Origin: Candidatus Hinthialibacter antarcticus
GTDB taxonomy: Bacteria > Hinthialibacterota > Hinthialibacteria > Hinthialibacterales > Hinthialibacteraceae
DNA length: 64,000 nt
Assembly: GCA_030765645.1 (NCBI GenBank)
Contig: JAVCCE010000010.1
Coordinates: 1 to 64,000 of the forward strand
Reading direction: 5' to 3'
Shown: piece after piece, positions 19,853-40,526 of the stretch
Layout: each line of letters begins with the position of its first letter
How positions within the stretch are numbered: the first letter of the stretch is position 1
Notes under the pieces: generated by a model
Told to the model about the DNA's origin: nothing
The model's input: only the letters and a program-made list of their open reading frames with translations
The model's database searches: none
Translations under genes and position numbers: made by a program

Positions 19853-19932
19853 GGCATGGGTGCAACTCTGGAAGCGCCTGTGCATAAGAGCCTGAAAGCC
19901 CGCACTGAAGCGAGCTGAGTTGTACCCATGCC
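19853..19932 (+). repeat. Structured intergenic element, copy A (80 bp)
   Basis: The arms GGCATGGGTGCAACTC and GAGTTGTACCCATGCC pair over 16 positions (15 Watson-Crick, one G-U). They enclose a 48-base core shared with copies at 30433 and 40415. The core contains AGCGCCTGTGCA, an inner hairpin (GTGC...GCAC, loop CTGAAA) and TGAAGCGA. It lies between divergent genes. Confidence 0.75.
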
Positions 19933-20088
19933 GCACGCAGCGAAATCTCAATTCAATTTGTAAAAAAATACCCAGTTTTCTAAAGAACCTTGTTTCCCAA
20001 AATTTATCCGAATAAACCCATTGACTTGAAAAGTTAAAATAGGCAATGATATCATATCACATAATCTTACGGCATTTTGGAGGAAGAG

Positions 20089-20892
20089 ATGAACACCTTT
20101 GTTAAGCATCTACGATTCATGGCTATTGCGGGCGCCCTTGCCTTGCCAGCCACAGCACAAGATTTTGAGTTTTCCGTCAACGATTTGAACTACCCAACGC
20201 CAACAATCACCATCGGACAAGACTTTGTGATCGAAGCGGAGCAAGCACTGCTCATTTTCGATGAAGGCGTTGAGTTCACGCCTGAAGAAGTCTATCAAGT
20301 AAACGCAAATCCGGCGGCGAGCGGCGGCGCCGAAGTTCAATTTATTGGGACTAGCAACCAAGGCCGCTTTAACAACTGGAGCCTCACCTTCCCGTTCATC
20401 CTGACCGAAGAGACGCATGTGCAACTGATTTACGGCATCCGCTTTTTCACTGGTGAAGGCGGCGAAGGCAAAGCCTATGTCAAAATGGACAACAATGAAG
20501 ATGATTTCTGGCCGAGCACGTTTTTCGGGCTTGAAGAAGACCTCTGGGCCGAAGCCGATTTCCCTGAAGGCGACGGCGGCGGTTGGATTCAAATCAATAA
20601 TTTCAGCAATAAGCAACGAAAAACGTACGGTGAATTCTGGGGCGACAATTTAGATTTCAGAGCAATTTGGGCGGAAGGAAACTGGTTTGGAAAACAACCC
20701 GAAGTTGAAATTCTTGCCTGGACGCTGCCCGCAGGACAACATACGTTTCAAATGACCCCGCGCAGCGGCGGTACGCTGGCGTTAGATTACGTCGCGATCA
20801 TCACGTCTGAATTCGACCGCTTCCAATTTGACTTTATTCCGGCGGATGCGCAAAAATTAGAAACCTCCGTCGAATCATTTATGCTGTACTAA
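20089..20892 (+). CDS. Secreted beta-rich protein, possibly carbohydrate-binding
   Basis: 267 residues from ATG 20089, with GGAGG six bases before. Signal peptide to about residue 24 (ALALPATAQ). The mature part looks like a single jelly-roll: a FVIEAEQALLIF start as in CBM6/CBM35-like domains, aromatic strands in the middle (WPSTFFGLEEDLW, WGDNLDFRAIW) and an LPAGQHTFQMTPRSGGTLALDYVAII ending, the usual last strands of such folds. No catalytic motif. I cannot name the family with confidence; a polysaccharide-binding or surface-layer role fits the neighbouring GH16 and sialidase-like genes. Confidence 0.6.
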   Translation: MNTFVKHLRFMAIAGALALPATAQDFEFSVNDLNYPTPTITIGQDFVIEAEQALLIFDEGVEFTPEEVYQVNANPAASGGAEVQFIGTSNQGRFNNWSLTFPFILTEETHVQLIYGIRFFTGEGGEGKAYVKMDNNEDDFWPSTFFGLEEDLWAEADFPEGDGGGWIQINNFSNKQRKTYGEFWGDNLDFRAIWAEGNWFGKQPEVEILAWTLPAGQHTFQMTPRSGGTLALDYVAIITSEFDRFQFDFIPADAQKLETSVESFMLY

Positions 20893-20915
20893 CCATCGCT
20901 ACGATCTAAAATCTA

Positions 20916-20944
20916 AAGGGAAGCCGGGTTGGCTTCCCTTTTTT
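20916..20944 (+). terminator. Rho-independent terminator
   Basis: AAGGGAAGCC, loop GGGTT, GGCTTCCCTT, then T's. A perfect 10-bp stem 23 bases after the stop codon. Confidence 0.9.
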
Positions 20945-21006
20945 ACTTTATTGAAAACCAAAAATGCAGTTCAATAGTCTTATCATAATTTTGGGAGATT
21001 TAATCA

Positions 21007-22029
21007 ATGAAACAATTCATGCTTTGGATGATCGCCGTACTGTTTGTAACTGCCGCTGCGTCTGCTGCTGACCGTTTAGGAGAAAAAGCCATTTTGTTGG
21101 AAGAACTGGTTTACACGGAAGCGTCCTTCCCGTCCTGCCATGCTTCCACCATTGTTGAAGTCGAACCGCGCGTCTTCTTATGCGCCTTCTTCGGTGGAAC
21201 CGGCGAGGGCAACAACGACGTCGGCATCTGGCTGGCGCGGCGCGACGGCGACGGCTGGTCCGCGCCGAAAGAAGTCGCTCAACATAGCGGCGTCCCTTGT
21301 TGGAACCCGGTACTGTTTCAAATGCCGGACGGCGAAACGCTTCTGTTCTACAAAGCCGGCCCTAGCCCGCGCGACTGGTCAGGACTCTTGAAACGCTCAA
21401 CCGACGGCGGCAAGACATGGTCAAAAGAAGAACTTTTTCCTTCTGGAATCTTAGGCCCCATCCGCGCCAAGCCCATTCTTCTTGATGATGGAACCTTGCT
21501 GTGCGGCTCCTCTGTCGAAAGTTGGAAAACCTGGGCCTGCTGGATGGAACACACGTCCGACGCGGGAAAATCATGGAGCAAGTCAGGCCCCATTTTCGTC
21601 CCGGGACAATTAAACGGCATCATTCAGCCAACCGTTTGGAAAGACGACGACGGCAATATCCGCATGTTGGCGCGCGCGCGCGGCATGAATCGAATTGTCA
21701 AGTCCATATCGAAAGACGACGGTAAAACCTGGACGCCGGGCGAACTTACGGAACTGCCGAACCCCAGCGCGGGAATCGACGCTGTGAAGATGACTGACGG
21801 ACGCGTGGCCTTGATCTATAACCACACCGAGAGCGGACGCCACAATCTCAGCATCGCAATCTCAGCCGACGACGGCGACACCTGGAAAACAGCAGTGACG
21901 TTAGAAAACCAACCAAAGGAATATTCGTACCCGGCGATCATCCAGGGCGCAGACGGCAAATTACACGCGACATACACGTATAACCGTGAGCGGATCAAGT
22001 ATGTGATTCTGGACCCGCGCCAGATGTAG
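21007..22029 (+). CDS. Secreted BNR-repeat (sialidase-like) glycoside hydrolase family protein
   Basis: 340 residues with a signal peptide (cleavage near ASAADR, residue 21). Several Asp-box/BNR motifs mark a six-bladed sialidase-type propeller: STDGGKTW (about 128), TSDAGKSW (about 182), SKDDGKTW (about 239) and SADDGDTW (about 290). The N-terminal SCHASTIVEVEP...AFFGGTGEG strand is typical of the BNR_2 group, which in many environmental bacteria acts on sugars other than sialic acid, such as rhamnose-containing chains. GGGAG precedes ATG 21007. Its last 35 bases overlap the convergent methyltransferase gene. Confidence 0.85.
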   Translation: MKQFMLWMIAVLFVTAAASAADRLGEKAILLEELVYTEASFPSCHASTIVEVEPRVFLCAFFGGTGEGNNDVGIWLARRDGDGWSAPKEVAQHSGVPCWNPVLFQMPDGETLLFYKAGPSPRDWSGLLKRSTDGGKTWSKEELFPSGILGPIRAKPILLDDGTLLCGSSVESWKTWACWMEHTSDAGKSWSKSGPIFVPGQLNGIIQPTVWKDDDGNIRMLARARGMNRIVKSISKDDGKTWTPGELTELPNPSAGIDAVKMTDGRVALIYNHTESGRHNLSIAISADDGDTWKTAVTLENQPKEYSYPAIIQGADGKLHATYTYNRERIKYVILDPRQM

Positions 22030-22624
22030 GCGGAGACGGTTTATGCAGCACCGCGAGTACCTCGCGTCCTCCAGCGATAGGTTGGATGGTTTGAAATCCA
22101 TAAGCTTTCAACACGGGCGTTAGCGTCGATTGCGTAAAGCGCAACGGCGCTTCGCCCGAATCAAGCCGCGAAGCAAAACGCCCCAACCAACGCACAATCG
22201 CCCACTCGCTATTCGACCAGTTCCTCACGGGTTCCGTCAGAATCACGCAGCGCCGCGCTGATGCGATCATTTTTTCTATCACCGCTTTTTCGTTGGGAAT
22301 AAACTGACACAGGCTGCCCATCATTATGATGCAATCGGCGGCAGGAATTTCATCTTCCAATACATTCAATGATTGCGTTTGAATATTTCGGCGTTGCGCC
22401 CATTGCAAAAAAGTGTGATTCAAATCGCAGGCAAGATAGCGAATGTTCTTCTCTTGCAACGCATAGCGAAACACCGCGCAATCGCCCGCGCATACGTCCG
22501 TCACCGATTCGCCGGGCTGCACCCACGTTGCAACAGCGTGATAGCGTTCGTGATAGCGCCTTCCATACAACAGGCGGATACTGAGCTCATATAAGAATGG
22601 GTGCCAATAGATCGGGCTGCGCAC
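21995..22624 (-). CDS. SAM-dependent methyltransferase (class I fold)
   Basis: 209 residues, GTG start at 22624, two bases after the stop of the upstream glycosyltransferase gene. A shortened SAM-binding motif is visible: VTDVCAGDCAVFRYAL (about 41-56), an acidic strand end ACDLNH (about 64-69) and CIIMMGSLCQFI as motif IV. The end of the protein runs 35 bases into the convergent sialidase-like gene, leaving no room for a terminator between them. Position at the end of an argH-wzt-GT2 run suggests modification of a glycan or lipid, but the substrate is not visible. Confidence 0.75.
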   Translation of the reverse strand: MRSPIYWHPFLYELSIRLLYGRRYHERYHAVATWVQPGESVTDVCAGDCAVFRYALQEKNIRYLACDLNHTFLQWAQRRNIQTQSLNVLEDEIPAADCIIMMGSLCQFIPNEKAVIEKMIASARRCVILTEPVRNWSNSEWAIVRWLGRFASRLDSGEAPLRFTQSTLTPVLKAYGFQTIQPIAGGREVLAVLHKPSPPTSGAGPESHT

Positions 22625-22626
22625 GG

Positions 22627-23343
22627 TTAGCGTTCCTGAAAAAAGCGTTTGCGAAATCGCAACAATTCACGAAAGTATGCAATACTGTCGCGAACCGGCT
22701 TCACGGTTGAGGCTTTGTCCCAGCGCCGGATAAACAACGCAGGAATTTCGTTCAGTTGCAATCCATGTTTGTGACACAACGCCATGATTTCTGTGTCCCA
22801 AAACCAACCGTTCGACTGGGCTTCGTCGAGCAATGGTAAGATGCGCTCCCGCCGGAAAAATTTGTATCCGGTTTCGGTATCTTGATAAGGAAGATCCAAC
22901 ATCGACTTGACCAGCGCCCGGTATGAATTGCTGAGAATGAAGCGGAAAAACGTATCCAGGTTCCAACGAATTTCATAATGACGGTAGGCGGTCGCACCGT
23001 CGAATCCGTCTTCAAGCGCTTGCAGCATAGACGGAATGTATCGGCAGTGCACTTCAAGGTCGATGTCGAGAAACCCGACGTAGGTTCCCTCCGACAAACG
23101 AAAACCCTCGGCGACTGTACCGCCTCGCCCAATGTTCGTTTCATGCAAAACCGAACGGACGTTCTCTCGTTGTTCGGCGCTTTGCCTGGCGGTTTGAGCG
23201 CTGCCGTCGGGGCTGGCGTCGTCGATGAGGATCAATTCATACGAATAATGGACTGCGGCGAGCGTGCGTTCAATCTCTTGCAGGCTGGCTTCGAGATGAG
23301 CGCCGTCGTTATAACACGCGATGACCAGAGAGAGATCAACCAC
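22627..23343 (-). CDS. Family 2 glycosyltransferase (DPM1/GtrB-like)
   Basis: 238 residues, whole length one GT-A domain. Motifs: DLSLVIACYNDG (nucleotide-binding start), LILIDDASPDGS (first Asp pair), NIGRGGTVAEGF and GFLDIDLEVH (metal-binding DxD-like). TETGYKFFRRE and GWFWDTEIM match the dolichyl/undecaprenyl-phosphate sugar synthase group. No C-terminal membrane helices are visible, so it is the soluble form. The start ATG overlaps the end of the ABC ATPase gene by eight bases, so the two are translationally coupled. Probably makes a lipid-linked sugar for a surface glycan. Confidence 0.85.
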   Translation of the reverse strand: MVDLSLVIACYNDGAHLEASLQEIERTLAAVHYSYELILIDDASPDGSAQTARQSAEQRENVRSVLHETNIGRGGTVAEGFRLSEGTYVGFLDIDLEVHCRYIPSMLQALEDGFDGATAYRHYEIRWNLDTFFRFILSNSYRALVKSMLDLPYQDTETGYKFFRRERILPLLDEAQSNGWFWDTEIMALCHKHGLQLNEIPALFIRRWDKASTVKPVRDSIAYFRELLRFRKRFFQER

Positions 23344-24598
23344 CGCCGCCGCCTTCGATGCGGGCGCTGCACGGCAGATGTATTTTTCCGCGAAGCCCGT
23401 AGCCTTTGGCTCCCGGCTTGACCATGAAGGGGCAGAGTTCTAAGCGAAGATCAAAGCCTTCATAAAAATTAAAATTCGATCCCGGCCCTTCTTCGCGTTT
23501 GCTAAAGCCGATGCTGAGGCTATAAGCGCCGTCGAGCAGGTTCAGCGCTTCAAATTCAAATATCGTTTTCCCCGCGCCGACAATCGAATCCACGTCGCCG
23601 ACAGTTACGTCCGTTGCGACCGTTGAGAGTTCATAGCCGTCATCCGCATGAAACGCGACCCCGAAAATAGGATACGCAATCGGCTTCTCGGTCTTCCACT
23701 GCAACTCGATCCGCACCCGTTCGCCGGTTTCAAACACATAGCGTTCGTCGCCGTTCGCATCGAACATGCGGACGCTAACAATCTTCGCCTCGAACGTCCC
23801 CAGGCGGTTGCGGCGAATGATTTCCGCCGAGGGCGCCTCGCCGCGTTGGCGCGCTTCCATAAACTGATGCTGCTTATACAGCGTCACCATGTCGTAGGGA
23901 CGCCCTTCGCCCAGCATGGCGCCTTTATGGATCACCACAGCCCGGTCGCACAACGACACAATCGCGTCGAGATCATGCGAGACCACCACGATGGTTTTTC
24001 CGCTGCGGCGCAGGGCGCGAACATGTTCTTTGCATTTTCGTTGAAAGCGCTGGTCGCCCACCGCCAGAATTTCGTCAACCAGCAGGATATCAGGATCAAC
24101 ATACACACCGACGGCGAAGCCAAGCCGCAAAAACATCCCGGAGGAATAATGCTTAACGGGTGAGTCGATAAATGCTTCCAATTCGCTAAACGCGATGATG
24201 TCCGCCATGCGTTCCGCGAGCACGCGGCGGGGGATGCCCAACAATGAGCCGGAGAGAAACACATTTTCGCGGCCCGTCATGTCGGGGTGAAACCCGACTC
24301 CAACTTCCAGCAGGCTGGATACGGTTCCGTTGACCTTCAACTCGCCGCTGGTCGGCTCGGTGATGCCCGCAACCAGTTTCAGCAGCGTACTTTTGCCGGA
24401 ACCGTTGTCGCCGATCAGCCCCAGAATTTCACCGCGATGAATGTCGAGGGTCACGTCTTTGACGGCGTCAATCGCGGTCTCGGTCATCAGGCCGCGCCCG
24501 CCGCGTAAGAAGGTTTCTTTCAACGTCGATTGGCGCTCAGAGGAAAGCAAATAGCGTTTCCCGACGCTTCGCATCGAAACCGCCGGGGCGTCGCTCAC
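23336..24598 (-). CDS. wzt: Polysaccharide ABC exporter ATPase with Wzt-type C-terminal domain
   Basis: 420 residues using GTG 24598, which overlaps the argH stop (GTGA) with GGAG seven bases upstream; longer readings would lie inside argH. Residues 1-230 are an ABC ATPase of the TagH/RfbE group: Walker A GDNGSGKSTL, signature HYSSGMFLRLGFA, Walker B DILLVDEILAVGD, switch VVVSHD. Residues about 280-410 form the beta-sandwich Wzt_C domain that recognises the end of the O-antigen chain before export. The partner permease (Wzm) is not in this window, which is unusual because the two genes are nearly always adjacent. The next gene is a glycosyltransferase, consistent with O-antigen or capsule synthesis. 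Confidence 0.9.
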   Translation of the reverse strand: MSDAPAVSMRSVGKRYLLSSERQSTLKETFLRGGRGLMTETAIDAVKDVTLDIHRGEILGLIGDNGSGKSTLLKLVAGITEPTSGELKVNGTVSSLLEVGVGFHPDMTGRENVFLSGSLLGIPRRVLAERMADIIAFSELEAFIDSPVKHYSSGMFLRLGFAVGVYVDPDILLVDEILAVGDQRFQRKCKEHVRALRRSGKTIVVVSHDLDAIVSLCDRAVVIHKGAMLGEGRPYDMVTLYKQHQFMEARQRGEAPSAEIIRRNRLGTFEAKIVSVRMFDANGDERYVFETGERVRIELQWKTEKPIAYPIFGVAFHADDGYELSTVATDVTVGDVDSIVGAGKTIFEFEALNLLDGAYSLSIGFSKREEGPGSNFNFYEGFDLRLELCPFMVKPGAKGYGLRGKIHLPCSARIEGGGGG

Positions 24599-26097
24599 GC
24601 CAAGTCTCCACGCAGGCAGCGCTTTTGCGCCGCATTCAGTTTCTCTTGCTCCGTATCGGTCCATTTCGCCAACGACGAATTTTGATGCGCAAGAGCAGTC
24701 AGATGTTTTTTGAGTTGCTGGGGATGCGGCGACCCATCATGATCGCGCTGGGCAATGCACTCCTGCGGTTCGGTCAGATTATGAAATTCATCCATACTCA
24801 ACGGCTTCACGCCCGCTTCATTCAACAATTGGTTTAGACCATCGAGTTTGAAGCGTCCGCTTTTGCTTTGCCCCACGGCGTCGGACATAATTTTGTAGGT
24901 CGAGCGAAACGGCAAATCGCGGGTGCGCGCCAGTGCGTCAGCAATGTCGACCGCATTCAGAAATCCCGTCTCCGCTGCGGAGGCCATCTTGTCAGCATTG
25001 ACTTTCAGCCCGGCGATCACGTCGCCCAATAAACGCGCGGCGCCCTGCCCTTCGCGAACGGCGTCCATGAAAACGTATTTCGTCCATTGCGCGTCTTTGT
25101 TATAGCCGAAAAAATTCGACGCGTTAATCGAAAGCAGCGAAAACGCGTAGCCAAAAATCACGCTGGCTTTACCTTTGATTGCTTCTGCAAAATCCGGGTT
25201 GCGCTTTTGCGGCATGATCGAACTGCCGGTGGTGAAATCAGAAGGCAGGCTGAGATAGCCGAATTCATCCGTCGAAAATAAAATCAGCCCCTGCGACGCG
25301 GCGGCGAGGCGCTTGAGCATCAGCGCAATGCCGTGTACGAATTCCGCCTCGGCTTCACCGCGCGAATCAATCGCATCGAGGGTATTCTCTTGCACGCCGT
25401 CGAACGCCAATAGTTCCGCGACGTACTTACGGTCTATGGGCCAGGTGGTACCATACGACGCCGCCGCGCCCAGCGGGCAGGTGTTCATGCGGCGGTAGAG
25501 GTCTTGAAATCGTTGCGCGTCGCGCAAGGCGCCCTGCGCGTACGATGCGCACCAATGCCCCCAGGTGGTCAAGGTCGCTTTGCGGTGATGAGTATAGCCA
25601 GGCATGACCGTCGCCGCGTGCGTCTTTGCGCATTTCAACAGCGAGGCGACCAGTTCGTTGAGTTCCTGACAAAACGCCAGAACCCCATCGCGAATGAACA
25701 GCTTCATATCCGTCGCGATCTGATCGTTTCGACTGCGTCCGCTGTGCAAACGCCCGCCGATTTTCTCGCCGCATTTATCCGTCACATACGTTTCAATATT
25801 GATGTGAACGTCTTCCAGAGCGGGGTCGAGGCGCCATTCGCCTTTTTTCCACTCACTCTCGAGGCGCTTTAACGCGGACAATATTTTTTTCGCTTGCGGC
25901 GCGCTATAAACGCCGACCTTTTGCAAGCCCAACGCATGAGCGCGGTTGGTCCAGATATCATAGGGGACAAGCGCATGATCGGCTTCGGGCGACGCAACCA
26001 CGTCGCGCCCCGCCGCAAACGCGACGAACGCCTCGCGCGCGCTGCCTTTGCTTTCGCTATGCCACACAGGTTTAGAAGAGTTGGTTTGATTTGCCAT
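24595..26097 (-). CDS. argH: Argininosuccinate lyase
   Basis: 500 residues, slightly longer than the usual 460. Last step of arginine synthesis: argininosuccinate to arginine and fumarate, cytoplasmic tetramer. Signatures: EDVHINIE and GRLHSGRSRNDQ in the N-terminal half, PGYTHHRKA, and the superfamily loop GSSIMPQKRNP (about residue 290). No argG or other arg gene is adjacent; it sits between DNA polymerase IV and the ABC ATPase, overlapping the latter by four bases. The C-terminal 45 residues look like a charged extension. Confidence 0.95.
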   Translation of the reverse strand: MANQTNSSKPVWHSESKGSAREAFVAFAAGRDVVASPEADHALVPYDIWTNRAHALGLQKVGVYSAPQAKKILSALKRLESEWKKGEWRLDPALEDVHINIETYVTDKCGEKIGGRLHSGRSRNDQIATDMKLFIRDGVLAFCQELNELVASLLKCAKTHAATVMPGYTHHRKATLTTWGHWCASYAQGALRDAQRFQDLYRRMNTCPLGAAASYGTTWPIDRKYVAELLAFDGVQENTLDAIDSRGEAEAEFVHGIALMLKRLAAASQGLILFSTDEFGYLSLPSDFTTGSSIMPQKRNPDFAEAIKGKASVIFGYAFSLLSINASNFFGYNKDAQWTKYVFMDAVREGQGAARLLGDVIAGLKVNADKMASAAETGFLNAVDIADALARTRDLPFRSTYKIMSDAVGQSKSGRFKLDGLNQLLNEAGVKPLSMDEFHNLTEPQECIAQRDHDGSPHPQQLKKHLTALAHQNSSLAKWTDTEQEKLNAAQKRCLRGDLA

Positions 26098-26141
26098 GAT
26101 GAGCGATTATATCGCGCAGCGGCAATCCGGTCGACAGGTTG

Positions 26142-27236: not shown

Positions 27237-27285
27237 GTCCCGCAACCCAAAATAATAATTCTATACTGTACAGCGGTTCGCGCGT

Positions 27286-27807: not shown

Positions 27808-27841
27808 AAAATCACCTCATGCTTGTATAAATTTCTGATTG

Positions 27842-28944: not shown

Positions 28945-30396
28945 ATGGTGGATAAAGCACTTTCTAAATTTTCGGCGTCACTGCCCCCCTCCCAACGATG
29001 GTTTGAAATTGTCGTCGCGTCTGCAATTATTCTGCTCGGCTTGAGCATGGTGTGGTTATTTGCGTCAGAGTGGGCGCTGCTTGGGACCCTGGGCGCGTTG
29101 GTGCTCGCTATTTGCGTCTTGTTTGGGTACGAATATTTTCCGTTAGCGTTATTTGTTACGCTTCCGTTTTCCGTTGAATTTCACCTGAGCGAATCCACCC
29201 GGCTCACCTTGCCGACGGAGATGCTGATCCCGCTGCTGGTGGTCTTGTTCGCGGGCGAATGCCTCAAACGCGGCGTGATTCCCATTCGCATGTCATGGAT
29301 GAACGGCGCGGTGCTGCTTTTTTACTTTATGATGGCGGCGTCATTGTTGTATACCACCCAACCGACCGCGACGCTCAAAGCGATTATTCGTGATTCAGGC
29401 TACATTTTGGCAGGATATTATTTCATCCCCCGTTTCGTGACTAGCGAAGCGAGATTAAAGCAGCTTCTCACATTTACGCTGGCGGCGCACATCCTACTGG
29501 TTCTATACGGCCTAGGGACGCAGGCCGTCAACGGCTTGCGTATTTACGGCGACCTCGCCTACCCGTTTTTCGTCGAACACTGCATCTATGCAGCGTTTAT
29601 CACGTTGACCTTAACTTTTTTGCTTGCATTTATGCTGGAAGAAAAGCCCGGCTCCACCCACAGAACATTGATCGCGCTCACGGGCTTCGTCGGCTTCGCG
29701 GTTGTACTCACGTTTGTACGCGGCGCTTGGATCAGTATATTCTTTGTTTTGTTATTTTATTTATATCAATTTCGCCACCGCAAATCATCCGTCGATTTAA
29801 TTCTCACCCTGATCTACATCGCTCTCATCGGCGGCGTTATCGTGATCGGGACCGGCCTCGGCGCCATGCTGATGCAGCGCGTGGAAACCATCACCGACCT
29901 TCAATACGTCGCCAACTATGACCGCATTGGACGCTGGGCCGCCGCCTTTGATATCTGGCAAGACCATCTCTGGTTGGGCGCAGGCTGGGGGTCGTATCCC
30001 GACGAATATTTCAACTATCTTCGCTATGAAGACGCCTATTCCGCCAAGTTCAGAATGGGGGCGCACAACATCTATTTGGAATTATTGGCTGAAACCGGCG
30101 TGTGGGGATTATCGGTGTTTTTGCTGATGATTTACGCCTTTTTCCGCCATGCGCTGCTGCTGCAAACCCGCGCTCAAAGCCGCTTTATCCGAACCACTCT
30201 GGCAGCGCTGCAAGGCGCCATGATTACATTTATTATTCACGCCTTCATCAACAATCTAGGGCCTTCCGACAAAATCGGCATCACATTCTGGTGGATATTG
30301 GGCATGATCCCAGCGATACAATCGCTGATCGAAAAAGAAGAACTCCCTAAATCAAACACAACAAACAGCGATCTCAACCCCAATCATTCCGAGTAG
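28945..30396 (+). CDS. O-antigen ligase/polymerase-family membrane protein (Wzy_C)
   Basis: 483 residues from ATG 28945. About eleven membrane segments; the large periplasmic loop before the last helices holds the Wzy_C-type motif: RIGRWAAAFDIWQDHLWLGAGWGSYPDEYF and AHNIYLELLAETGVWGL (about 335-405), with the conserved Arg, Gly and His. In known members this domain ligates or polymerises lipid-linked glycans (WaaL, Wzy, PglL). Its exact role here is not determined, but the nearby Wzt, GT2 and methyltransferase genes, which are divergent from it, support surface-polysaccharide work. A TTGACA at 28912 suggests a promoter very close to the start. Confidence 0.8.
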   Translation: MVDKALSKFSASLPPSQRWFEIVVASAIILLGLSMVWLFASEWALLGTLGALVLAICVLFGYEYFPLALFVTLPFSVEFHLSESTRLTLPTEMLIPLLVVLFAGECLKRGVIPIRMSWMNGAVLLFYFMMAASLLYTTQPTATLKAIIRDSGYILAGYYFIPRFVTSEARLKQLLTFTLAAHILLVLYGLGTQAVNGLRIYGDLAYPFFVEHCIYAAFITLTLTFLLAFMLEEKPGSTHRTLIALTGFVGFAVVLTFVRGAWISIFFVLLFYLYQFRHRKSSVDLILTLIYIALIGGVIVIGTGLGAMLMQRVETITDLQYVANYDRIGRWAAAFDIWQDHLWLGAGWGSYPDEYFNYLRYEDAYSAKFRMGAHNIYLELLAETGVWGLSVFLLMIYAFFRHALLLQTRAQSRFIRTTLAALQGAMITFIIHAFINNLGPSDKIGITFWWILGMIPAIQSLIEKEELPKSNTTNSDLNPNHSE

Positions 30397-30432
30397 GAAA
30401 TTCAATATACCGCTAACAGGCAAACGAATTCT

Positions 30433-30512
30433 GGCATGGGTGCGACTCTGAGAGCGCCTGTGCATAAGGGCCTGAAAGCCCGCACTGAAGCGAGCAGAGT
30501 TGTACACATGCC
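30433..30512 (+). repeat. Structured intergenic element, copy B (80 bp)
   Basis: Same element as 19853, differing at a handful of positions: arms GGCATGGGTGCGACTC and GAGTTGTACACATGCC, core with an inner hairpin GTGC-ATAA-GGGC/CTGAAA/GCCCGCAC. Two of the three arm mismatches are G-U pairs on this strand. It lies between convergent genes (30396 and 30550), where a terminator would be expected. Confidence 0.75.
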
Positions 30513-30549
30513 TCTCGAAGCGTAAGTACAAATAGTTTAGAGATGTCTT

Positions 30550-32075: not shown

Positions 32076-32113
32076 CCAACAGCCCACTGGACACAATGCC
32101 ATTAGGCTTTTCG

Positions 32114-32157
32114 CCCCTCTTTTTAAGGAGGGTGGCGCTGAAAGCGCCGGGGGGATC
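32114..32157. repeat. Short inverted repeat / REP-like fragment
   Basis: CCCCTCTTTTTAAGGAGGG is followed by a hairpin GGCGCT-GAA-AGCGCC (32134-32148) and GGGGGGATCC. Similar AAGGAGGGTGGCGC...GCGCCGGGGGG strings are common as intergenic repeats in environmental genomes; here only one copy is seen in the window. Confidence 0.4.
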
Positions 32158-32314
32158 CCAAAACAACAGAAACAAAGCGATACATTCAAACAATAATTCA
32201 AGGGCTGGCCTAGCCTGTGACAGACAGGTTCGTTCCAGTCAGCCTTGGCTCGGCGCCTCTTAAGTTAATGACATTGCCACTGGACAAGTTGACAATTGCA
32301 GTCAGAATTCAACC

Positions 32315-32749: not shown

Positions 32750-32757
32750 CGCGTCTC

Positions 32758-33195
32758 ATGCCGGGATACAAAACTCACATCGCCGCCTCGCTCTTGTTCT
32801 GCGGCGGGCTTTATTTTTTCCCTTTCTGGGAACCGCTCCCCATTCTGGGCAAAGCCGCCTGCGTCGCGATCTGTGTATTTTTCGGGCTATGGCCGGACGT
32901 GGACACCAAAAGCAAAGGCCAGGTGGTGTTTCTCATTCTATTTCTAATCGTGGATGGAATTTTGATCTTACGGCAGGAGTTCGAACGCGCCGCTTATTTG
33001 GGGATGCTGATTACTCTGCCGCTGTTGGCGCGCCATCGCGGCTGGACGCACCAATGGCTGGCGATGGTGTTGATTCCCGGCGGCCTCTATTTCGCTGCGG
33101 TGCACTATACCGGCGCACACCCCGGCGACCTGCTTCCCTACCTGCTCGCCGCCCTCCTCGGCTACGCCAGCCACCTCGTCGCGGATAAGTTTTAG
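32758..33195 (+). CDS. DUF457/YdjM-like membrane protein
   Basis: 145 residues, five or so membrane segments. Conserved polar residues of the family are visible: MPGYKTHIAAS (His7), LWPDVDTKSKG (Asp pair) and ARHRGWTHQWLA (HRGxTH), with SHLVADKF at the end. These are proposed metal ligands of membrane-bound hydrolases related to YdjM, which in E. coli is an SOS-regulated protein. Function here is unknown. Close spacing to the IscA-like gene suggests cotranscription. Confidence 0.75.
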   Translation: MPGYKTHIAASLLFCGGLYFFPFWEPLPILGKAACVAICVFFGLWPDVDTKSKGQVVFLILFLIVDGILILRQEFERAAYLGMLITLPLLARHRGWTHQWLAMVLIPGGLYFAAVHYTGAHPGDLLPYLLAALLGYASHLVADKF

Positions 33196-33253
33196 AGATT
33201 ACTCTTGATAGATACCGATTGTATGATACAAAGCAATAGAAAGATTTTATGAA

Positions 33254-34444
33254 ATGAGCGTAATTACGATGCCAAAAGATTACTCGCCTTTTACACCAGG
33301 AGTCCCTGTAGATCGCGAATACTTTATAGGTCGTGAAAATGAAATAACGACTTTCATCGACACGATCAGAAAATCAGTGCATAGAAAATCTTTTGAACGT
33401 ATGTTTGTGCTTGGGGAGAGAGGAATCGGAAAAAGTTCTCTATGCAAACATGCAAGTTTTGTCGCAGAGCAGCAATGTGAAATCATGAGTGTTCATGTTT
33501 CGCTAGGTGGCGTGAGCACATTAGATGAAGCCGTTAAGCGTATTTTTGATGCACTTATAAAAGATAATGTAGACAAACCTTGGTTTGGGTCAATAAAAAA
33601 GTTCTTTGGTAATCATATAAGCCAAATTGGTTTATTCGGCATAGACTTTGAATTCAACATTAGTGACCGTGATTTAAAGAAAGCAGTCCGAGAATTTATT
33701 CCAGCTTTGATGGATCTTATTCAAAAGATCAAAAACAGAAAAGGCATCCTTCTTATTTTGGATGACATTAATGGTCTAGCTGCACTTCCTGAATTTGCTC
33801 ATTGGTTAAAAAGTACAGTAGACCAAGTAGCAATAAAACAAAAACCGTTCCCTGTTACTCTCGTACTGGTTGGGTTGGCGGAACGAAGAAATCAATTAAT
33901 CTATACTCAACCATCATTAGACCGTGTTTTTGATTTAATCGACATTTTGCCTTTCGAAGAAGCCAAATCAAATGACTTTTTTTTAAATGCATTCAATACA
34001 GTCAATGTTAAAATCAAAGATGATGCTCTAAAAGTCTTATGGCAATATTCGCAAGGCTATCCGGTTTTCATGCATGAAATTGGAGATGCCGTTTTTAAAC
34101 ATGATAACGATGGAGTTATTTCATCGGAAGATGTTTATTTAGGTTCCGTTGACGCAACTCAAGTCATAGGAAAGAAATACATAGAATCAAATGTACTATC
34201 AGCAGTACATAGCCCTAAATATAAATCCATATTAAAACGTTTTAGCAAGAGAGAAATTGCATTTGCTTTCACAAGACAAGAATCTCTTGAAAAATTAAAC
34301 AATGAAGAATCTAAGGTCTTTGATAATTTTATTAGAAGAATGAAAAAGTTGAATGTAATTTGTCAAAATAATGAATTAGGCCTTGGCACATATCAATTCA
34401 CAAGTCTTCCTTATTATTTGTATTTCACTTTACATCGGAAATGA
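33254..34444 (+). CDS. AAA/STAND-like ATPase, probably horizontally acquired
   Basis: 396 residues. N-terminal GVPVDREYFIGRENEI is the typical start of AAA_16/archaeal-type ATPases. Walker A is GERGIGKSS (residues 54-62) and Walker B ILLILDDING (about 170-180). A sensor-like LVLVGLAERR follows, and the C-terminal 120 residues look like a winged-helix region (IAFAFTRQESLEKLN...FDNFIRRMKKLNVI). Related proteins act as Orc/Cdc6-like or signal-transduction ATPases, sometimes in defence modules, but no effector gene is adjacent. Codon use is clearly AT-rich compared with both neighbours, and the gene sits as a single insert between the DUF457 gene and korB. The ribosome site before ATG 33254 is weak. 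Confidence 0.75.
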   Translation: MSVITMPKDYSPFTPGVPVDREYFIGRENEITTFIDTIRKSVHRKSFERMFVLGERGIGKSSLCKHASFVAEQQCEIMSVHVSLGGVSTLDEAVKRIFDALIKDNVDKPWFGSIKKFFGNHISQIGLFGIDFEFNISDRDLKKAVREFIPALMDLIQKIKNRKGILLILDDINGLAALPEFAHWLKSTVDQVAIKQKPFPVTLVLVGLAERRNQLIYTQPSLDRVFDLIDILPFEEAKSNDFFLNAFNTVNVKIKDDALKVLWQYSQGYPVFMHEIGDAVFKHDNDGVISSEDVYLGSVDATQVIGKKYIESNVLSAVHSPKYKSILKRFSKREIAFAFTRQESLEKLNNEESKVFDNFIRRMKKLNVICQNNELGLGTYQFTSLPYYLYFTLHRK

Positions 34445-34466
34445 TATTCACTCATCTAATCAAAAA

Positions 34467-34498
34467 AAGCCGCCCCGGTTGTTTCACCAAGGCGGCTT
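34467..34498. terminator. Bidirectional terminator between AAA ATPase and korB
   Basis: AAGCCGCC and GGCGGCTT form an 8-bp stem with extra inner pairing. On the minus strand it is followed by seven T's, a strong terminator for the korAB operon; on the plus strand it can serve the ATPase gene less well. Confidence 0.8.
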
Positions 34499-34523
34499 CG
34501 TATTATATCACTTGATAAAAACC

Positions 34524-35558
34524 CTAATTTACGACCCAGGTTTCGCCGGAATGCAGCAGCGCTTTTAAGTCGCCGCCGGGTTTGTCCTGTTGCGCTTTCT
34601 CGACTTGGACGCGAACATCTTCATCATAAATCGGGCGATGCACCTGACGAAAAATCCCAACAGGGGCGGGAAACTCAGGATAATTCATCCCTGACAGCAT
34701 ATACGCCCGAGTCGGGTCCTGACGAGTGGAATCATGTACCAGCAGATCGCTTTCCGACACGCCGTTTTCACCAATGACAACGGCTTCAAGTTCATGGTCG
34801 GCATTAAGGCGAATGCCCTTCTCGCCGTCTTTGCCAAAGCGCATCGGCTGACCGTCTTCCAACTCCATCACCGTATCGGATTTCAACTTGCGGTCGGTCG
34901 CCCATTCCCAGGCGCCGTCGTTGAAGATGTTGCAATTCTGTAAGATTTCGACGAACGATGTCCCTTTGTGCCGCGCCGCCGCTTCCAGCGTCTCCGCCAG
35001 ATGTTTGGTATACACATCCACCGAACGCGCAACGAAACTCGCCTCAGCGCCCAACGCAATGCGCAACGGGTGCAGCGGGTTATCGACCGATCCGTACGGC
35101 GTCGATTTTGTTTTCTTACCGCATTCTGAGGTCGGTGAATATTGCCCCTTAGTCAGACCATAAATACGGTTGTTGAATAGCAGGATGGTTATATCCACAT
35201 TGCGGCGGATCGCGTGAATCAAGTGGTTACCGCCAATGCTGAGCGCATCGCCGTCGCCGGTAATGACGAACACATGCAACTCGGGGCGCATGATCTTTAA
35301 CCCCGTCGCAAACGCAGGCGCCCGCCCGTGGATCGAATGCAACCCGTAGGTATCCATATAATAGGGGAACCGGCTCGAGCAGCCGATGCCGGAAATAAAG
35401 GCGATGTCCTTTTTAGGAATCTGCATATTCGCCAGCGCTTTTTTCATCTGCGTCAAAATCGAATAGTCGCCGCAGCCGGGGCACCAGCGCACGTCTTGTT
35501 CTGAGCCGTAATCTTTCGGCGTTAATTTGGGTTCTTGAGGCGCGATCGCCATCGTCAT
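34524..35558 (-). CDS. korB: 2-oxoglutarate (2-oxoacid):ferredoxin oxidoreductase, beta subunit
   Basis: 344 residues. Binds thiamine diphosphate: WCPGCGDYSIL with cluster-binding Cys, GIGCSSRFPYYMDTYGLHSIHGRAPAFATGLK, and the TPP/Mg motif GDGDALSIGGNHLIHAIRRN...LFNNRIYGLTKGQYSPTS. Together with the alpha subunit it converts 2-oxoglutarate (or a similar 2-oxoacid) and CoA to the acyl-CoA, reducing ferredoxin. ATG 35558 shares its A with the korA stop codon TAA, with GAGGAG just before, so translation is coupled. Specificity for 2-oxoglutarate rather than pyruvate is inferred from the two-subunit layout. Confidence 0.9.
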   Translation of the reverse strand: MTMAIAPQEPKLTPKDYGSEQDVRWCPGCGDYSILTQMKKALANMQIPKKDIAFISGIGCSSRFPYYMDTYGLHSIHGRAPAFATGLKIMRPELHVFVITGDGDALSIGGNHLIHAIRRNVDITILLFNNRIYGLTKGQYSPTSECGKKTKSTPYGSVDNPLHPLRIALGAEASFVARSVDVYTKHLAETLEAAARHKGTSFVEILQNCNIFNDGAWEWATDRKLKSDTVMELEDGQPMRFGKDGEKGIRLNADHELEAVVIGENGVSESDLLVHDSTRQDPTRAYMLSGMNYPEFPAPVGIFRQVHRPIYDEDVRVQVEKAQQDKPGGDLKALLHSGETWVVN

Positions 35559-37429
35559 TACTCCTCTAATGCCTTCGTAATAGCAGACTGAATTTCTGAA
35601 ATCTGGAATGGACGGCCTTGGATTTTATTCAGCCCCTTGGCTTTCACCAGAAACTTGGAACGAATCAACATGCGCAATTGGCCCAGGTTGAGTTCGGGAA
35701 TCAACACATTTTTGAAGTTCGACAACACTTCGCCCAAATTTTTGGGGAACGGATTCAAATAACGCAAGTGCGCACTGGAAACCGACTTCCCTGCCTTGCG
35801 GGCGCGGTCAACGGCGGTTGTGATCGAACCGTACGTCCCGCCCCAGCCCAAGACCAACAGATCGCCGGTCTCTTTTCCGTTCACTTGCAGCGGTGGGATG
35901 TCTTCCGCAATGCCGTCGATCTTGTTCTGGCGCAACCGCACCATGAAATCGTGGTTTTCCGGGTCATAACTGACAGCGCCTGTGATGTGCTGTTTTTCCA
36001 AACCGCCCAGGCGGTGCTGCAAACCTTCCGTACCAGGGATCGCCCAGGGGCGCCCCAAACGCTCGTCGCGAATATACGGCTGGAAGCCCTTTTCCGAATT
36101 GACCTCAGTGGTGTAGTTCACTTCAATCTTCGGCAGCGATTCAACGTCAGGAATTCGCCAAGGCTCAGCGCCGTTGGCCAGATAGCCGTCAGAAAGCAGA
36201 ATCACGGGCGTCATGAACTTCAGCGCAATACGCGCCGCTTCCAACGCCATATCGAAGCAATCCGCAGGCGTCGCCGGAGCCACAATCGCTACAGGCGATT
36301 CGCCGTTACGTCCAAAAATAGATTGCAACAGGTCGGATTGCTCGGTCTTAGTTGGAAGCCCAGTGCTGGGTCCTCCGCGCTGGACGTTCACAATCACAGC
36401 GGGCAGTTCGGTCATTACGCCAAGCCCGATGGCTTCCATCTTCAACGCCAGGCCGGGGCCGCTGGTTCCGGTCACTGCCAGGCAGCCGCCAAACGAAGCG
36501 CCCAACACGGCGCACATCGCCGCGATTTCGTCTTCGGCTTGAAAGGTGGTTGCGCCGTGATTTTTATGCGCAGCGATTTCATGCAAAATATCGCTGGCAG
36601 GCGTGATTGGGTAACTTGCGTAAAACAATGGCTTATCAGAGAGTTTTGAGGCTGCGACTAAACCCAACACTACAGCGCTGTTACCGGTAACTTTGCGGTA
36701 CACGCCGGGTTTGATATCGGCTTTATCGACTTTATAAGAACTGGTAAACAATTCAGCCGTTTCGCCGTAGTGATACCCAGCCTTGAGAGCGCGCGTATTG
36801 GCTTCGAGCAGGTTTTCTTTTCCGGCGAATTTTTTCTCGATCCAGCGTGTAGTAGATTCAATGGGGCGGTTATAGACCCAAAATGCAAGCCCCAGCATGA
36901 AGAAATTTTTACAGCGGTCGCCAGACTTGCGGTCGAGTCCCAATCCTTCAATCGAATCGCGATTCAATTTCGTAAGTGGAATCGCCACAACCTGATAACT
37001 GCTGAGTGAACCATCTTCCAACGGGTTCTCTTTGTAGCCTGCTTTTTCCAAACTATCTTTGGAGAAAGATTCAGAGTTGACGACTAACAGGCCGCCGTCA
37101 ACCAATTCTATCAAATTGGCTTTCATCGCCGCCGGGTTCATAGCGAACAGCGCATCAATACCGTCGCCGGGCGTATGAATGTCCTGGCTGGCGAAATTGA
37201 TCTGAAATCCGCTGACGCCAGCGAGCGTTCCCGCCGGAGCGCGAATTTCCGCCGGAAAGTCCGGCAATGTCGCCACATCGTTACCGTGAATGACGGAGCT
37301 GGTGGTGAATTGGCTGCCCATCAGCTGCATACCGTCGCCAGAGTCGCCGGCAAAGCGCACTGTGGCGGATTCAATCGCCTGAATCTTTCGATTCAGGTTT
37401 ACGGGGTCTAAGGATTCCGCAGTAGACAT
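35558..37429 (-). CDS. korA: 2-oxoglutarate (2-oxoacid):ferredoxin oxidoreductase, fused gamma-alpha subunit
   Basis: 623 residues from ATG 37429. The gamma domain comes first (FAGDSGDGMQLMGSQFTTSSV, PAEIRAPAGTLAGVSGFQINF). The alpha domain follows from about 220 with the pyrimidine-binding YPITPASDILHE, QAEDEIAAMCAVLGASFGG, TGTSGPGLALKMEAIG and the substrate loop VNVQRGGPSTGLPTKTEQSDL. The last 150 residues are the CoA-binding region (LGWGGTYG). This fused arrangement is the common KorA form in anaerobes and reductive-TCA bacteria. No delta ferredoxin subunit gene is present, so it should use free ferredoxin. Promoter region is 37430-37706. Confidence 0.9.
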   Translation of the reverse strand: MSTAESLDPVNLNRKIQAIESATVRFAGDSGDGMQLMGSQFTTSSVIHGNDVATLPDFPAEIRAPAGTLAGVSGFQINFASQDIHTPGDGIDALFAMNPAAMKANLIELVDGGLLVVNSESFSKDSLEKAGYKENPLEDGSLSSYQVVAIPLTKLNRDSIEGLGLDRKSGDRCKNFFMLGLAFWVYNRPIESTTRWIEKKFAGKENLLEANTRALKAGYHYGETAELFTSSYKVDKADIKPGVYRKVTGNSAVVLGLVAASKLSDKPLFYASYPITPASDILHEIAAHKNHGATTFQAEDEIAAMCAVLGASFGGCLAVTGTSGPGLALKMEAIGLGVMTELPAVIVNVQRGGPSTGLPTKTEQSDLLQSIFGRNGESPVAIVAPATPADCFDMALEAARIALKFMTPVILLSDGYLANGAEPWRIPDVESLPKIEVNYTTEVNSEKGFQPYIRDERLGRPWAIPGTEGLQHRLGGLEKQHITGAVSYDPENHDFMVRLRQNKIDGIAEDIPPLQVNGKETGDLLVLGWGGTYGSITTAVDRARKAGKSVSSAHLRYLNPFPKNLGEVLSNFKNVLIPELNLGQLRMLIRSKFLVKAKGLNKIQGRPFQISEIQSAITKALEE

Positions 37430-37634
37430 TCTTTTAATTTTAACTCCAAATGCGTAGAAATTGCGCACGAACCCAAGCATTGGTCTCATACGCGTTAAAA
37501 CGGTGACTCACCTGGGGAAGGTTTCTCGTGTGAGAGGGCGATGATGATGACCGGTGGTGAACAACGCCGTTTGGTATTTCAACTACTTTATTTTCAGTAC
37601 GTTACAGAAAAAAATATGCTTCTAATACTGTATA

Positions 37635-37672
37635 GTGTATTCCACGCCGCCTAATACGCAACGTGGAACACA
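37635..37672 (-). terminator. Hairpin after hisB-like gene (weak terminator candidate)
   Basis: TTCCACG (37640-37646) and CGTGGAA (37662-37668) pair, with extra GTG/CAC pairing after a two-base bulge. It starts about 35 bases after the hisB-like stop on the minus strand. There is no T-run, so its terminator role is uncertain. Confidence 0.3.
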
Positions 37673-37706
37673 TTATATTCTATAAACTTTATAGGATATA
37701 TCAAGA

Positions 37707-38342
37707 TTACTTAGTCGATATATCAATAAATCCTGCGACGCCAACGGTATGGCCTTTGCGCCACGGGCATGGATTCAACGACGCGCGGGTCGCTTCACCA
37801 AATGCGCGGAACACCGCTTCCCAGATATGGTGGGGGTCTTCACCCGACAGAATGTCAATATGGATAGTCGCGCGGGCGCCTTGCGCGACGCCGCCTAAGA
37901 AGTTCCATAAATCCATGCAAAGCATGTCTTCAACCCGCTCTGGAATCACAACCGAGCCGCGATTAAAGTAAAAGCCGCTGCGGTATTCATACGATATTCG
38001 GGCGCGGGCGACGGCTTCGTCGATGAAACTTTCTCCAATTCCACTTGCGTTAACCCCTTGATTTTTAATCATTTGGTCAGTAACGCGCAACAGCGCCTCG
38101 CCAAAACATTGCCCTGCGTCTTCAGCGATGACGTGTTGGAGCACAAATTCTTTCATCTCGACCGAACAAGACAAATTCAAGCACGAACGCCAGGCCCATT
38201 GCTCAATCATGTGGCTGAGAAAATGAATGGTCGTGTCGATATTCCCTTTTAAGTTGGGGTCCATCTCTCCACCTTTGATGCCGGTGATGATGGTCGACTC
38301 ACGGGTTGCCCGTTGAATTGTGACTGGATCAAATTGAAACAT
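37707..38342 (-). CDS. HisB-like (imidazoleglycerol-phosphate dehydratase family) protein, divergent
   Basis: 211 residues, family length. The two-repeat IGPD fold is recognisable: HFLSHMIEQ (compare FLDHMLEQ), HVIAEDAGQCFGEAL (compare HHTVEDVGIALGEAL), FIDEAVARA (compare MDEALA) and GEDPHHIWEAVFRAF (compare GENDHHIVEAAFKAL). Several metal or substrate residues differ: one His of the first HH pair and the His of the farH-type helix are gone, and the SGR motif is RSGF. So either activity differs from true HisB or metal binding is altered. It follows the hisD-like gene by two bases, with AAAGGAAAGG before ATG 38342. No other his gene is present. I leave the symbol blank because the canonical residues are incomplete. 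Confidence 0.7.
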   Translation of the reverse strand: MFQFDPVTIQRATRESTIITGIKGGEMDPNLKGNIDTTIHFLSHMIEQWAWRSCLNLSCSVEMKEFVLQHVIAEDAGQCFGEALLRVTDQMIKNQGVNASGIGESFIDEAVARARISYEYRSGFYFNRGSVVIPERVEDMLCMDLWNFLGGVAQGARATIHIDILSGEDPHHIWEAVFRAFGEATRASLNPCPWRKGHTVGVAGFIDISTK

Positions 38343-38344
38343 AC

Positions 38345-39646
38345 TCAGCCTTTCCTTTCTGTCCGTACGGCGGCTGCGTGAGCAGGGAACCCTTCAAAAT
38401 CAGCAAATACAGCAACGTGGTCCCGCAGCGATTCGTAGCCTTCTTCGGTGACATAACTAAGCGACGTGCGCTTCATGTAATCATGCACGGTAACCACTGA
38501 TGATGTCTTCGCCCGCCCGCCAGTCGGCAGAATGGCGTTAACGCCCAGCGAATAATTGCAAATTGAAATGGGCGTAAACGGCCCCATCATAATTTCGCCT
38601 GCGTTTGTCAACTTTGTCACCAACGCCATCGGGTCTTTGGTGAGCACTTCCAAGTGCTCCGGCGCATAATCATTCGTAAACGCAATGGCTTCTTCTAATG
38701 TATCGGTCAAAACGACGCCGCCATAATTCGAAAACACCGTGGTGACGTAATCCTTTTGTTTTTCCGGCAAGGCATTTATCTTGTCAGGAAGAATCCTGAC
38801 CAGTTCATTCGCCAATTTTTCACTATGGGTCACTGCGAGCGCGGCGGAATACGGCCCATGCTCCGCTTCTATTAATAGGTCTGTCGCAACCAATTCTGGA
38901 TTGGCAAACTCATCGGCAAGAATAATAGATTCACTAGGCCCAGCGGGAGTTCCGAAGTCCATTACGCCATAAAGTATTTTCTTAGCCGCCGACGCGTAAA
39001 TGTTGCTAGGTCCAAGCATTTTAAGAACAGGGATAATCGTTTCCGTCCCCAATGCAAAGGCAGCAACCGCTTGAACGCCGCCGAAGCGGTATATTTCATC
39101 AATTCCAACAAGTTCAGCCGCGTAAAGTGAGGCGTCATCGACAGTTCCGTCAGCCTGTGGCGGCGTAACCACTGCGATGCGACCAACGCCAGCAATCTTC
39201 GCCGGGACGCCAAGCATCAACAGTACAGATGGATAGGCCGCCGTACCGCGCGGAACATAAAGCACGCAGCTTTCGATTGGAGAAACCTTCTCGCCGCACA
39301 TGAGGCCGGGGCCAACTTCGGTAAACCATAGTTCTTCGGGCATCTGGCGCTCATGAAAGGTCTTGATATTCTGATACGAAATATCAATCGCTTTTTTGAC
39401 TTTGGGATCAAGCCGGGCGCCTGCGGCTTTGATTTCTTCCTGCGTAACCCGCAGGCCGCATTGGCTCAAGTCGGCGCCGTCAAACTCTTTCGTTAGCGCC
39501 ACGATGGCTTTGTCGCCTTGCGCTTTGACGCGGTCTATAATCTCTTGCGCCTTGGGGATAAACGCATCAATATCCTGCCCGGAGCGGGCGAGTATTTTGG
39601 CCTTTTGTGAGTCAGGCGTTTGGTTCCAACGATATATAGGAATCAT
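38345..39646 (-). CDS. Histidinol dehydrogenase family protein (HisD or HisD-like)
   Basis: 433 residues from ATG 39646. NAD-dependent fold with FGTPAGPSESIILADE, LLIEAEHGPYSAA (metal/substrate His in AEH) and APEHLEV (catalytic Glu-His). The C-terminal motif reads YSLGVNAILPTGGRAKTSSVVTVHDYMKR, where true HisD has GxNHxLPTxGxAR: the His is replaced by Ala. The second metal-site Gln of AQAEH is Glu. Overall it resembles HisD paralogs, a group that also includes dehydrogenases for other amino- or sulfo-alcohols. Paired with a divergent HisB-like gene, it could be a repurposed module or simply the lineage's own variant of the histidine pathway. Confidence 0.75.
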   Translation of the reverse strand: MIPIYRWNQTPDSQKAKILARSGQDIDAFIPKAQEIIDRVKAQGDKAIVALTKEFDGADLSQCGLRVTQEEIKAAGARLDPKVKKAIDISYQNIKTFHERQMPEELWFTEVGPGLMCGEKVSPIESCVLYVPRGTAAYPSVLLMLGVPAKIAGVGRIAVVTPPQADGTVDDASLYAAELVGIDEIYRFGGVQAVAAFALGTETIIPVLKMLGPSNIYASAAKKILYGVMDFGTPAGPSESIILADEFANPELVATDLLIEAEHGPYSAALAVTHSEKLANELVRILPDKINALPEKQKDYVTTVFSNYGGVVLTDTLEEAIAFTNDYAPEHLEVLTKDPMALVTKLTNAGEIMMGPFTPISICNYSLGVNAILPTGGRAKTSSVVTVHDYMKRTSLSYVTEEGYESLRDHVAVFADFEGFPAHAAAVRTERKG

Positions 39647-39902
39647 TTTTGTATTTCTACCTTCGTTTAAGTATCGTAAAATTTTAGCATGTATCAATCA
39701 GTTACCGAGGGGCGCAAACCGGCTTAATCGTAAGAAATGGGGTTTTTCGATACACTTTCTCGATATAGACATTGTATAACCTGAATTTTTTTCATAAAAT
39801 GCCCAAACTTTTCGACGCATTCGATCATAACTGCATAGAATATCATCTTCCGAACCGAACAGCGCCGTTGAATGCGTAAATGAATCAAAAGGAGCCTTTC
39901 CA

Positions 39903-40331
39903 ATGAAGATGAAGAAATATTTATCGGCGGCAATGGGTATAGCGACGCTCGTATGTTTTGTTTTGGTCGTGAGTGGAGACTCTCAACTCTGGAGCCAGGA
40001 AAAAGAGCAACCGTCTTTTGCAAAGAATCTTCAGGTGCTGGAATTTGAAAGCAAAGAAGAATTATTTGCGTATATGCAAGAACTTCAACAAGCGCTCGGC
40101 GTCAAATGCAACTTCTGCCATGACGTGAAAAGCGGGTTCCACGTTGACAACCCCGACTTGCATAAAGAAATCGCCCGTAATTTTATGAAAATGGTGAAAG
40201 GCCTCAATGAAGGCTTCTTCAAAGACATGGATGACAAGGTAACTTGCTTTACATGCCACCAAGGCCGCAAGCACCCGGTGAATAGCCTGGCGGATTTAAA
40301 GAAACTCCAAGCAGCCGAAGCAAGCAACTAA
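39903..40331 (+). CDS. Di-haem c-type cytochrome (reaction-centre cytochrome subunit-like)
   Basis: 142 residues. An N-terminal hydrophobic segment (about 7-25) acts as signal or anchor. Two haem sites: CNFCH (69-73) and CFTCH (115-119). The spacing and the phrases LGVKCNFCHD, EIARNFMKMVKGLN and VTCFTCHQGRKHPV match the short proteins related to the photosynthetic reaction-centre cytochrome c family, found in many non-phototrophs as periplasmic electron carriers. Axial ligands could include Met95 or Met97. GGAG lies nine bases before ATG 39903. It is divergent from the hisD-like gene and has its own terminator. Confidence 0.8.
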   Translation: MKMKKYLSAAMGIATLVCFVLVVSGDSQLWSQEKEQPSFAKNLQVLEFESKEELFAYMQELQQALGVKCNFCHDVKSGFHVDNPDLHKEIARNFMKMVKGLNEGFFKDMDDKVTCFTCHQGRKHPVNSLADLKKLQAAEASN

Positions 40332-40357
40332 ACGAACACACTATATCAACCAAAAAT

Positions 40358-40381
40358 GGCCCTCAATCGAGGGCCTTTTTT
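40358..40381 (+). terminator. Rho-independent terminator after cytochrome gene
   Basis: GGCCCTC, loop AATC, GAGGGCC, then six T's. Confidence 0.9.
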
Positions 40382-40414
40382 AATGTTATGTGAATCAGCG
40401 CAAATATTTGGCCT

Positions 40415-40510
40415 ATTTATAAGGCGCGGGCGCTTCTCATTGAGCGCCTGTGCAAGAGGGCATGAAAGCCCGCACTGAAGCGAAGAGAGAAGTGCCCGCG
40501 CCTTATAAAT
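40415..40510 (+). repeat. Structured intergenic element, copy C (96 bp, different arms)
   Basis: Outer arms ATTTATAAGGCGCGGGCGCTTCTC and their partner (40487-40510) pair over 24 positions with a single G-U. The arm sequence is unrelated to copies A and B, yet the 48-base core matches them closely (GAGCGCCTGTGCA, GGGC-ATGAAA-GCCC, GCACTGAAGCGA). Conserved core plus compensating arms is the pattern of a structured element. It lies between convergent genes, right after the cytochrome terminator. Confidence 0.8.
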
Positions 40511-40526
40511 ACAGCTTGGTTCCACC

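Follow-up and report, generated by a model that had tools for sequence, protein, structure and literature searches.

Intergenic palindromic repeats are usually regarded as neutral or selfish. The repeats of the REP/RAYT system are defined in part by a GTAG or CGTC tag that stays unpaired at one of their ends (PMC3733652), and transcripts of Correia and ERIC elements can affect neighbouring mRNA, e.g., through cleavage by RNase III (PMC2649163, PMC10969869). An ISL3-type transposon has been described with an 11-bp terminal repeat, GGGTCTTCGGA, and an 8-bp duplication (PMC9782665), duplications of this length being usual for ISL3 elements. The element analysed here, an imperfect hairpin of ~80 bp, seems to have had two histories in one genome, as an old element at gene ends and as the cargo of a newer MITE. 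Transposition, with its random positions, and function, with its biased positions and slowly changing core, could thus be compared in a single genome.

Hairpins of the window and their copies in the genome

The window, i.e., the whole 64-kb stretch of DNA analysed, contains three hairpins with a near-identical core and one orientation, at positions 19853–19932 (A), 30433–30512 (B) and 40423–40502 (C). Their positions had been correctly given by an earlier sequence-only reading, as had their gene contexts: B and C lie between convergent gene ends and A between divergent genes. The fold z-scores relative to shuffled sequences are −3.9, −5.1 and −9.3 for A, B and C, respectively, and the pairing of hairpin C reaches further out, to 40414–40511. 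The core corresponds to positions 19874–19912 (plus strand) in A and 40444–40482 (plus strand) in C. The arms of C had been described as unrelated to those of A and B; this view has to be abandoned, since the scheme GGC.nGGG..GC..CTC is common to all three, and the arms of C share 63% identity with those of the MITE type and 76% with those of the free-standing type described below.

Searching the 5.15-Mb genome with the core pattern (at most three mismatches) yielded 242 copies, 127 on one strand and 115 on the other, which is far above chance; the reversed core pattern, used as a control, had no match in the same genome. The assembly breaks at MITE/hairpin copies and at ISL3 copies, which form many contig ends (e.g., C16, C20, C37, C61 and C69), so that the true number of copies is probably above 242. 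Approximately 2.4 Mb of the genome were read and 187 copies were extracted from this part. It also contains half hairpins (26 right-only and 11 left-only remnants), some of which are contig ends. Direct tandem copies 130–230 bp apart are present in L063 (7410/7545), L069 (1698/1877), L112 (5524/5747) and L090 (3333/3561), some resulting from segment duplication and others being adjacent MITEs; inverted tandem copies were never seen.

Outside this genome, two covariance models detected no copy in 13 other genomes of the small phylum, so that the search suggested by the sequence-only reading succeeded in the genome itself (by core pattern) and failed among relatives. A GTDB-wide search with the core pattern produced 11 scattered single matches, armless and mostly due to chance (records of the present genome may be absent there), and a search of IMG/VR revealed no copy. 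No Rfam model matched at the gathering score; the weak matches are to long-hairpin miRNA models, on both strands. Judging from sequence comparison, the family is composed of two layers: ISL3-derived MITE copies, which are the majority, and older free-standing copies.

Two further repeats were noticed in the window, a 300-bp direct repeat (8152–8451 and 8804–9103, 89% identical) covering the starts of two adjacent 195-codon frames, and an intergenic 37-nt unit in two tandem copies (5350–5423).

MITE copies and the ISL3 insertion sequence

Copy A and most other copies are almost certainly MITEs derived from an ISL3-family element. Most copies have in common ~95 bp to the left and 60–87 bp to the right of the hairpin, with consensus termini GGTTCATCCGG...CGGAAGAACC and a total length that is usually 190–265 bp. 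According to a crude gene caller made in the analysis, no predicted gene overlaps any copy, and the MITE is apparently non-coding. Many MITE copies are flanked by clear 8-bp AT-rich direct repeats (e.g., taaagtaa, caaataaa and agaattga), and they show no bias of orientation or position relative to genes (26 same, 18 opposite, 22 convergent and 21 divergent).

Copy A is a complete MITE of 233 bp (19757–19989, plus strand) with the termini GGATCATCCTG...CTAAAGAACC and a degenerate target duplication, 93% and 88% identical to the consensus in its left and right flanks; its hairpin (plus strand) bears the type-1 arms GGCATGGGTGCAACTC and GAGTTGTACCCATGCC. Copy B (30386–30525, plus strand) combines an intact hairpin, on the same strand, with a decayed MITE flank whose termini are no longer recognisable; it is 80% identical to copy A across 140 nt and its flanks are near background identity. 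At copy C neither MITE flanks nor MITE ends were found and flank identity equals background, so that C, having no remaining MITE feature in its sequence, is not assigned to the MITE copies.

The ISL3 transposase was seen in the genome only as fragments, three of them at contig ends. Its C-terminus (PF01610, E 1.6e-20) runs into GGTTCATCCGGTAAATGAGTACC..., and in the three contig-end fragments it is followed by GGTTCATCCGGTAAATGAGTACCTACATTGATGGATGGCC (reverse complement) as the terminal sequence. Over the first 50 bases, this IS end and the left end of the MITE are identical at 47 positions (47/50), a comparison that covers the end near the transposase C-terminus, the IS being cut by contig ends. 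The sequence-only reading had named a match to a known IS end as an outcome that would speak against it, and the match present here is that of the MITE left end; the proposed search for a transposase-linked copy led to a MITE-like end beside the ISL3 transposase C-terminus, but not to support for mobilisation by a RAYT. The mobility suspected earlier is thus real, as indicated by the TIRs, the 8-bp target duplications and the parental IS end, but it belongs to the ISL3-derived DNA MITE and not to the hairpin itself.

IS1595, suggested as the MITE parent by the 8-bp duplication, was rejected in favour of ISL3, no IS1595 transposase being present in the genome. Three genes encode RAYTs (REP-associated tyrosine transposases), in L162, L163 and L164, with different repeats around each; the L164 gene is split up into frames that overlap. 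A mobilisation of the hairpin by RAYTs is not supported. A match to a REP family, also considered earlier, was not found: the hairpin has no tag, measures ~80 bp and is conserved at its apex. Another repeat, which has ends GCAATGTCATTGACTTAAG and an internal sequence resembling that beside the RAYT gene of L162, is inserted within several of the hairpins (L088, L118, L182, L196, L202, L212 and L216) and may target extruded hairpins; 39 of its ends were seen in the 2.4 Mb, and the window has such an end in another context (32259–32277).

Pairing, core and gene-end position of the hairpin

Covariation of the arms, which had been proposed from three copies, was confirmed on a larger set. Among 25 diverse copies, 89% of the cells in a 29-pair structure are paired and both sides have changed in 14 of the 29 pairs, compared with a mean of 6 after shuffling (none of 500 shuffles was as high), and partners slid by 1–3 columns pair in only 27–47%. 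The signal is stronger among 25 free-standing copies than in this diverse set. The accompanying argument that mismatches are G-U rather than A-C fails genome-wide: the apparent excess of G-U comes from column 13, a single inherited G-U position, and outside this column the arms of 134 copies have 64 G-U and about 65 A-C, with 11 G-U and 12 A-C in 26 free-standing copies. The deduction of an RNA strand from a G-U bias was consequently dropped. Gene context, i.e., antisense gene ends and a T-rich tract on the gene strand, suggests that the sense strand is probably the minus strand of the window, opposite to the earlier proposal.

The hairpin core is very probably constrained beyond its surroundings, on the evidence of copies within one genome. 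Between close MITE pairs, divergence amounts to 15.6% in the flank, 11.7% in the arms, 8.4% in the bulge and loop and 2.9% in the core strands, so that, even between close copies, the rate of change in the core is about one fifth of that in the flanks beside it. When copies are grouped by flank decay, core identity goes from 0.99 to 0.94 while the flanks reach background, and the arms remain paired though their letters change. This is not an ascertainment bias due to finding copies through their core, since a search with the MITE flanks only still finds it intact in 103 of 113 matches, including 19 of the 20 weakest flank matches; those without an intact core are mostly explained by deletions or insertions. 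Transposition of the MITE should not require the hairpin, and the slow core therefore points to selection on the hairpin itself, suggesting that it does something in place.

Approximately 26 free-standing copies, C among them, are present in the 2.4 Mb, corresponding by extrapolation to ~55 in the genome. They exhibit a second arm type, GGCTTGGGGGCGTCTCTGTGA...AAGAGAGACGTACCCAAGCC, with a mean likeness of 74% in the arms and 94% in the core strands, and no two have common flanks, tandem duplicates excepted. This set is the older of the two. Its helices extend outward from the conserved GGC/GCC ends by a mean of 2.8 further pairs, versus 1.1 in MITE copies, and these extensions are made of copy-specific bases (88 Watson–Crick, 4 G-U and 7 A-C).

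Based on the crude gene calls, the gene on the 3′ side, on the other strand, ends toward the element in 23 of 27 free-standing copies versus 40 of 87 MITE copies (Fisher p 3e-4), and for 15 of the 21 full-length cases the stop codon is 12–64 nt away from the hairpin, the median distance being 32 nt. The T share on the gene strand at the five bases past the hairpin is 77, 46, 62, 69 and 50%. At least five T among the eight bases directly past the hairpin occur in 42% of free-standing copies versus a background of 8% (p 5e-7), and the T-rich tail is commoner on the gene strand than on the opposite strand (p 0.002). With respect to the features of intrinsic terminators, the median position past the stop fits, and a T-rich tract is present on the gene strand in 13 of 26 copies. 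On the gene strand, the element folds into a compact rod composed of CGCUU/AGGCG, a CR bulge, GUGC/GCAC, a bulge of 4–5 nt and GGGC/GCCC with a small loop. A 5′ leader or riboswitch was rejected, there being no association with start codons or orientation.

Copy C (40414–40511, minus strand) is of this type-2 kind, and its arms pair 9 bp past the GGC/GCC ends. The gene ending toward it (40527–41207, minus strand, in the crude gene calls) has its stop codon 24 nt from the hairpin, so that C would fall in the 3′ untranslated region of this gene. An ordinary bidirectional intrinsic terminator (40358–40375, either strand) is located ~40 bp past the hairpin; C itself thus need not terminate transcription at its own locus.

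Origin of the hairpin family and comparison with known systems

The best reading, to which we assign a probability of about 0.5, is that an ISL3 MITE took up a cis-acting gene-end hairpin and multiplied it. The older type-2 copies, including C, lie just downstream of genes and, if transcribed on the gene strand (the minus strand of the window at C), could act as cis-acting 3′-end hairpins that end or bound transcripts, or protect or process their 3′ ends. The arms would need only to pair, and the two fixed core strands of ~10 nt would probably be read by a protein or an RNase. One version of the hairpin would have become enclosed in an ISL3-family insertion sequence shortened by deletion, and the ISL3 transposase, recognising the GGTTCATCCGG ends in trans, would have scattered this MITE to intergenic AT-rich sites, giving rise to A, B and most copies.

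For the free-standing copies, we consider a gene-end role to be evenly balanced between true and false. Half of them have no clear T-tract, C has its own terminator nearby, and G-U and A-C are equally frequent, unlike in a typical RNA helix. The main difficulty is that MITE copies have no position bias and yet a constrained core, which a 3′-end role alone does not explain. The earlier idea of a functional RNA or RNA-like mobile element accordingly keeps the support of the core constraint and of the gene 3′-end position of the oldest copies, and loses that of the G-U argument.

The family could instead be purely selfish DNA without any host role, the older copies being dead mobile families (REP-like, with a lost RAYT or another ssDNA transposase), the core being kept for mobility and the gene-end position reflecting survival where insertion harms little. 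The presence of hundreds of copies between the genes of a single genome speaks for such DNA; REPs prefer intergenic space and REPINs also show compensatory changes (PMC3116915). Of the three RAYT genes, a decayed one, with other repeats at its sides, is followed after ~0.5 kb by two free-standing copies, but by our own estimate this nearness is close to chance at the present copy density, and the repeats belonging to the RAYTs are of other kinds (24 and 28 matches for those of two RAYTs). Moreover, neither a GTAG/CGTC tag nor a common flanking tetranucleotide was found in the free-standing copies, which also lack common flanks, and they are oriented at gene ends. The core is constrained as well in MITE copies, whose movement relies on the ISL3 ends and should be possible without it. 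We regard a purely selfish origin as unlikely.

The equal numbers of G-U and A-C could also reflect an element acting at the DNA level during replication or in nucleoid organisation, as a cruciform or as a hairpin of single-stranded DNA, with arms that would be re-paired by template-switch (quasipalindrome) repair and not by RNA selection. Such template copying would yield arm extensions that are copy-specific and almost only Watson–Crick, as observed; the constraint is independent of gene context, and the repeated insertion of the GCAATGTCATTGACTTAAG repeat within hairpins hints at extrusion. Nevertheless, the orientation bias at gene ends and the one-sided T-tract of free-standing copies are transcript-like, and template switching does not explain the fixed core, making this explanation doubtful. 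Gene conversion among the many copies could keep the core, their most uniform part, unchanged without selection on single copies. Its tracts would, however, repeatedly have to end at the core edge, leaving different complementary arms; the loops within the core vary more than the core strands, and copies with identical core variants largely lack common arms or flanks. We thus consider gene conversion highly improbable.

Returning to the captured gene-end hairpin, a wider proposal is possible, and we put it forward tentatively: a structured core of ~20 nt would be under purifying selection in place at ~240 sites dispersed over one genome and read in cis by a host factor, as an RNA 3′ end or as DNA, a transposon having spread the signal, i.e., an unrecognised regulatory or architectural hairpin. 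A core that is read in cis would represent a portable 3′-end signal in a barely studied phylum.

In common with IS-derived MITEs, the MITE copies are short and apparently non-coding, with IS-like terminal repeats, 8-bp AT-rich duplications and a high copy number, but they differ in holding an internal structured hairpin with a core more conserved than the transposon ends and flanks. REP/REPIN sequences associated with RAYTs similarly comprise hundreds of intergenic hairpins per genome with compensatory arm changes (PMC3116915). In contrast to these, the present element has no GTAG/CGTC tag, is about 80 bp long instead of 20–40, forms a single hairpin and not an inverted doublet, and is organised inside out, with a conserved apex and variable outer arms; the RAYTs of the genome have other repeats. 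Functionally, the family may be likened to small mobile hairpins of the Correia/ERIC type and to terminator-like repeats such as SPRITE. Correia elements (CREE/NEMIS) and ERIC are likewise small, mobile and intergenic, and their transcripts form long hairpins, but their sequences are unrelated and their terminal repeats make up the hairpin, whereas here it is an internal module that also occurs on its own, outside the transposon. In Streptococcus pneumoniae, an unrelated organism, SPRITE is a dispersed repeat that looks like a rho-independent terminator (PMC10969869); it is likened here by description and not by sequence.
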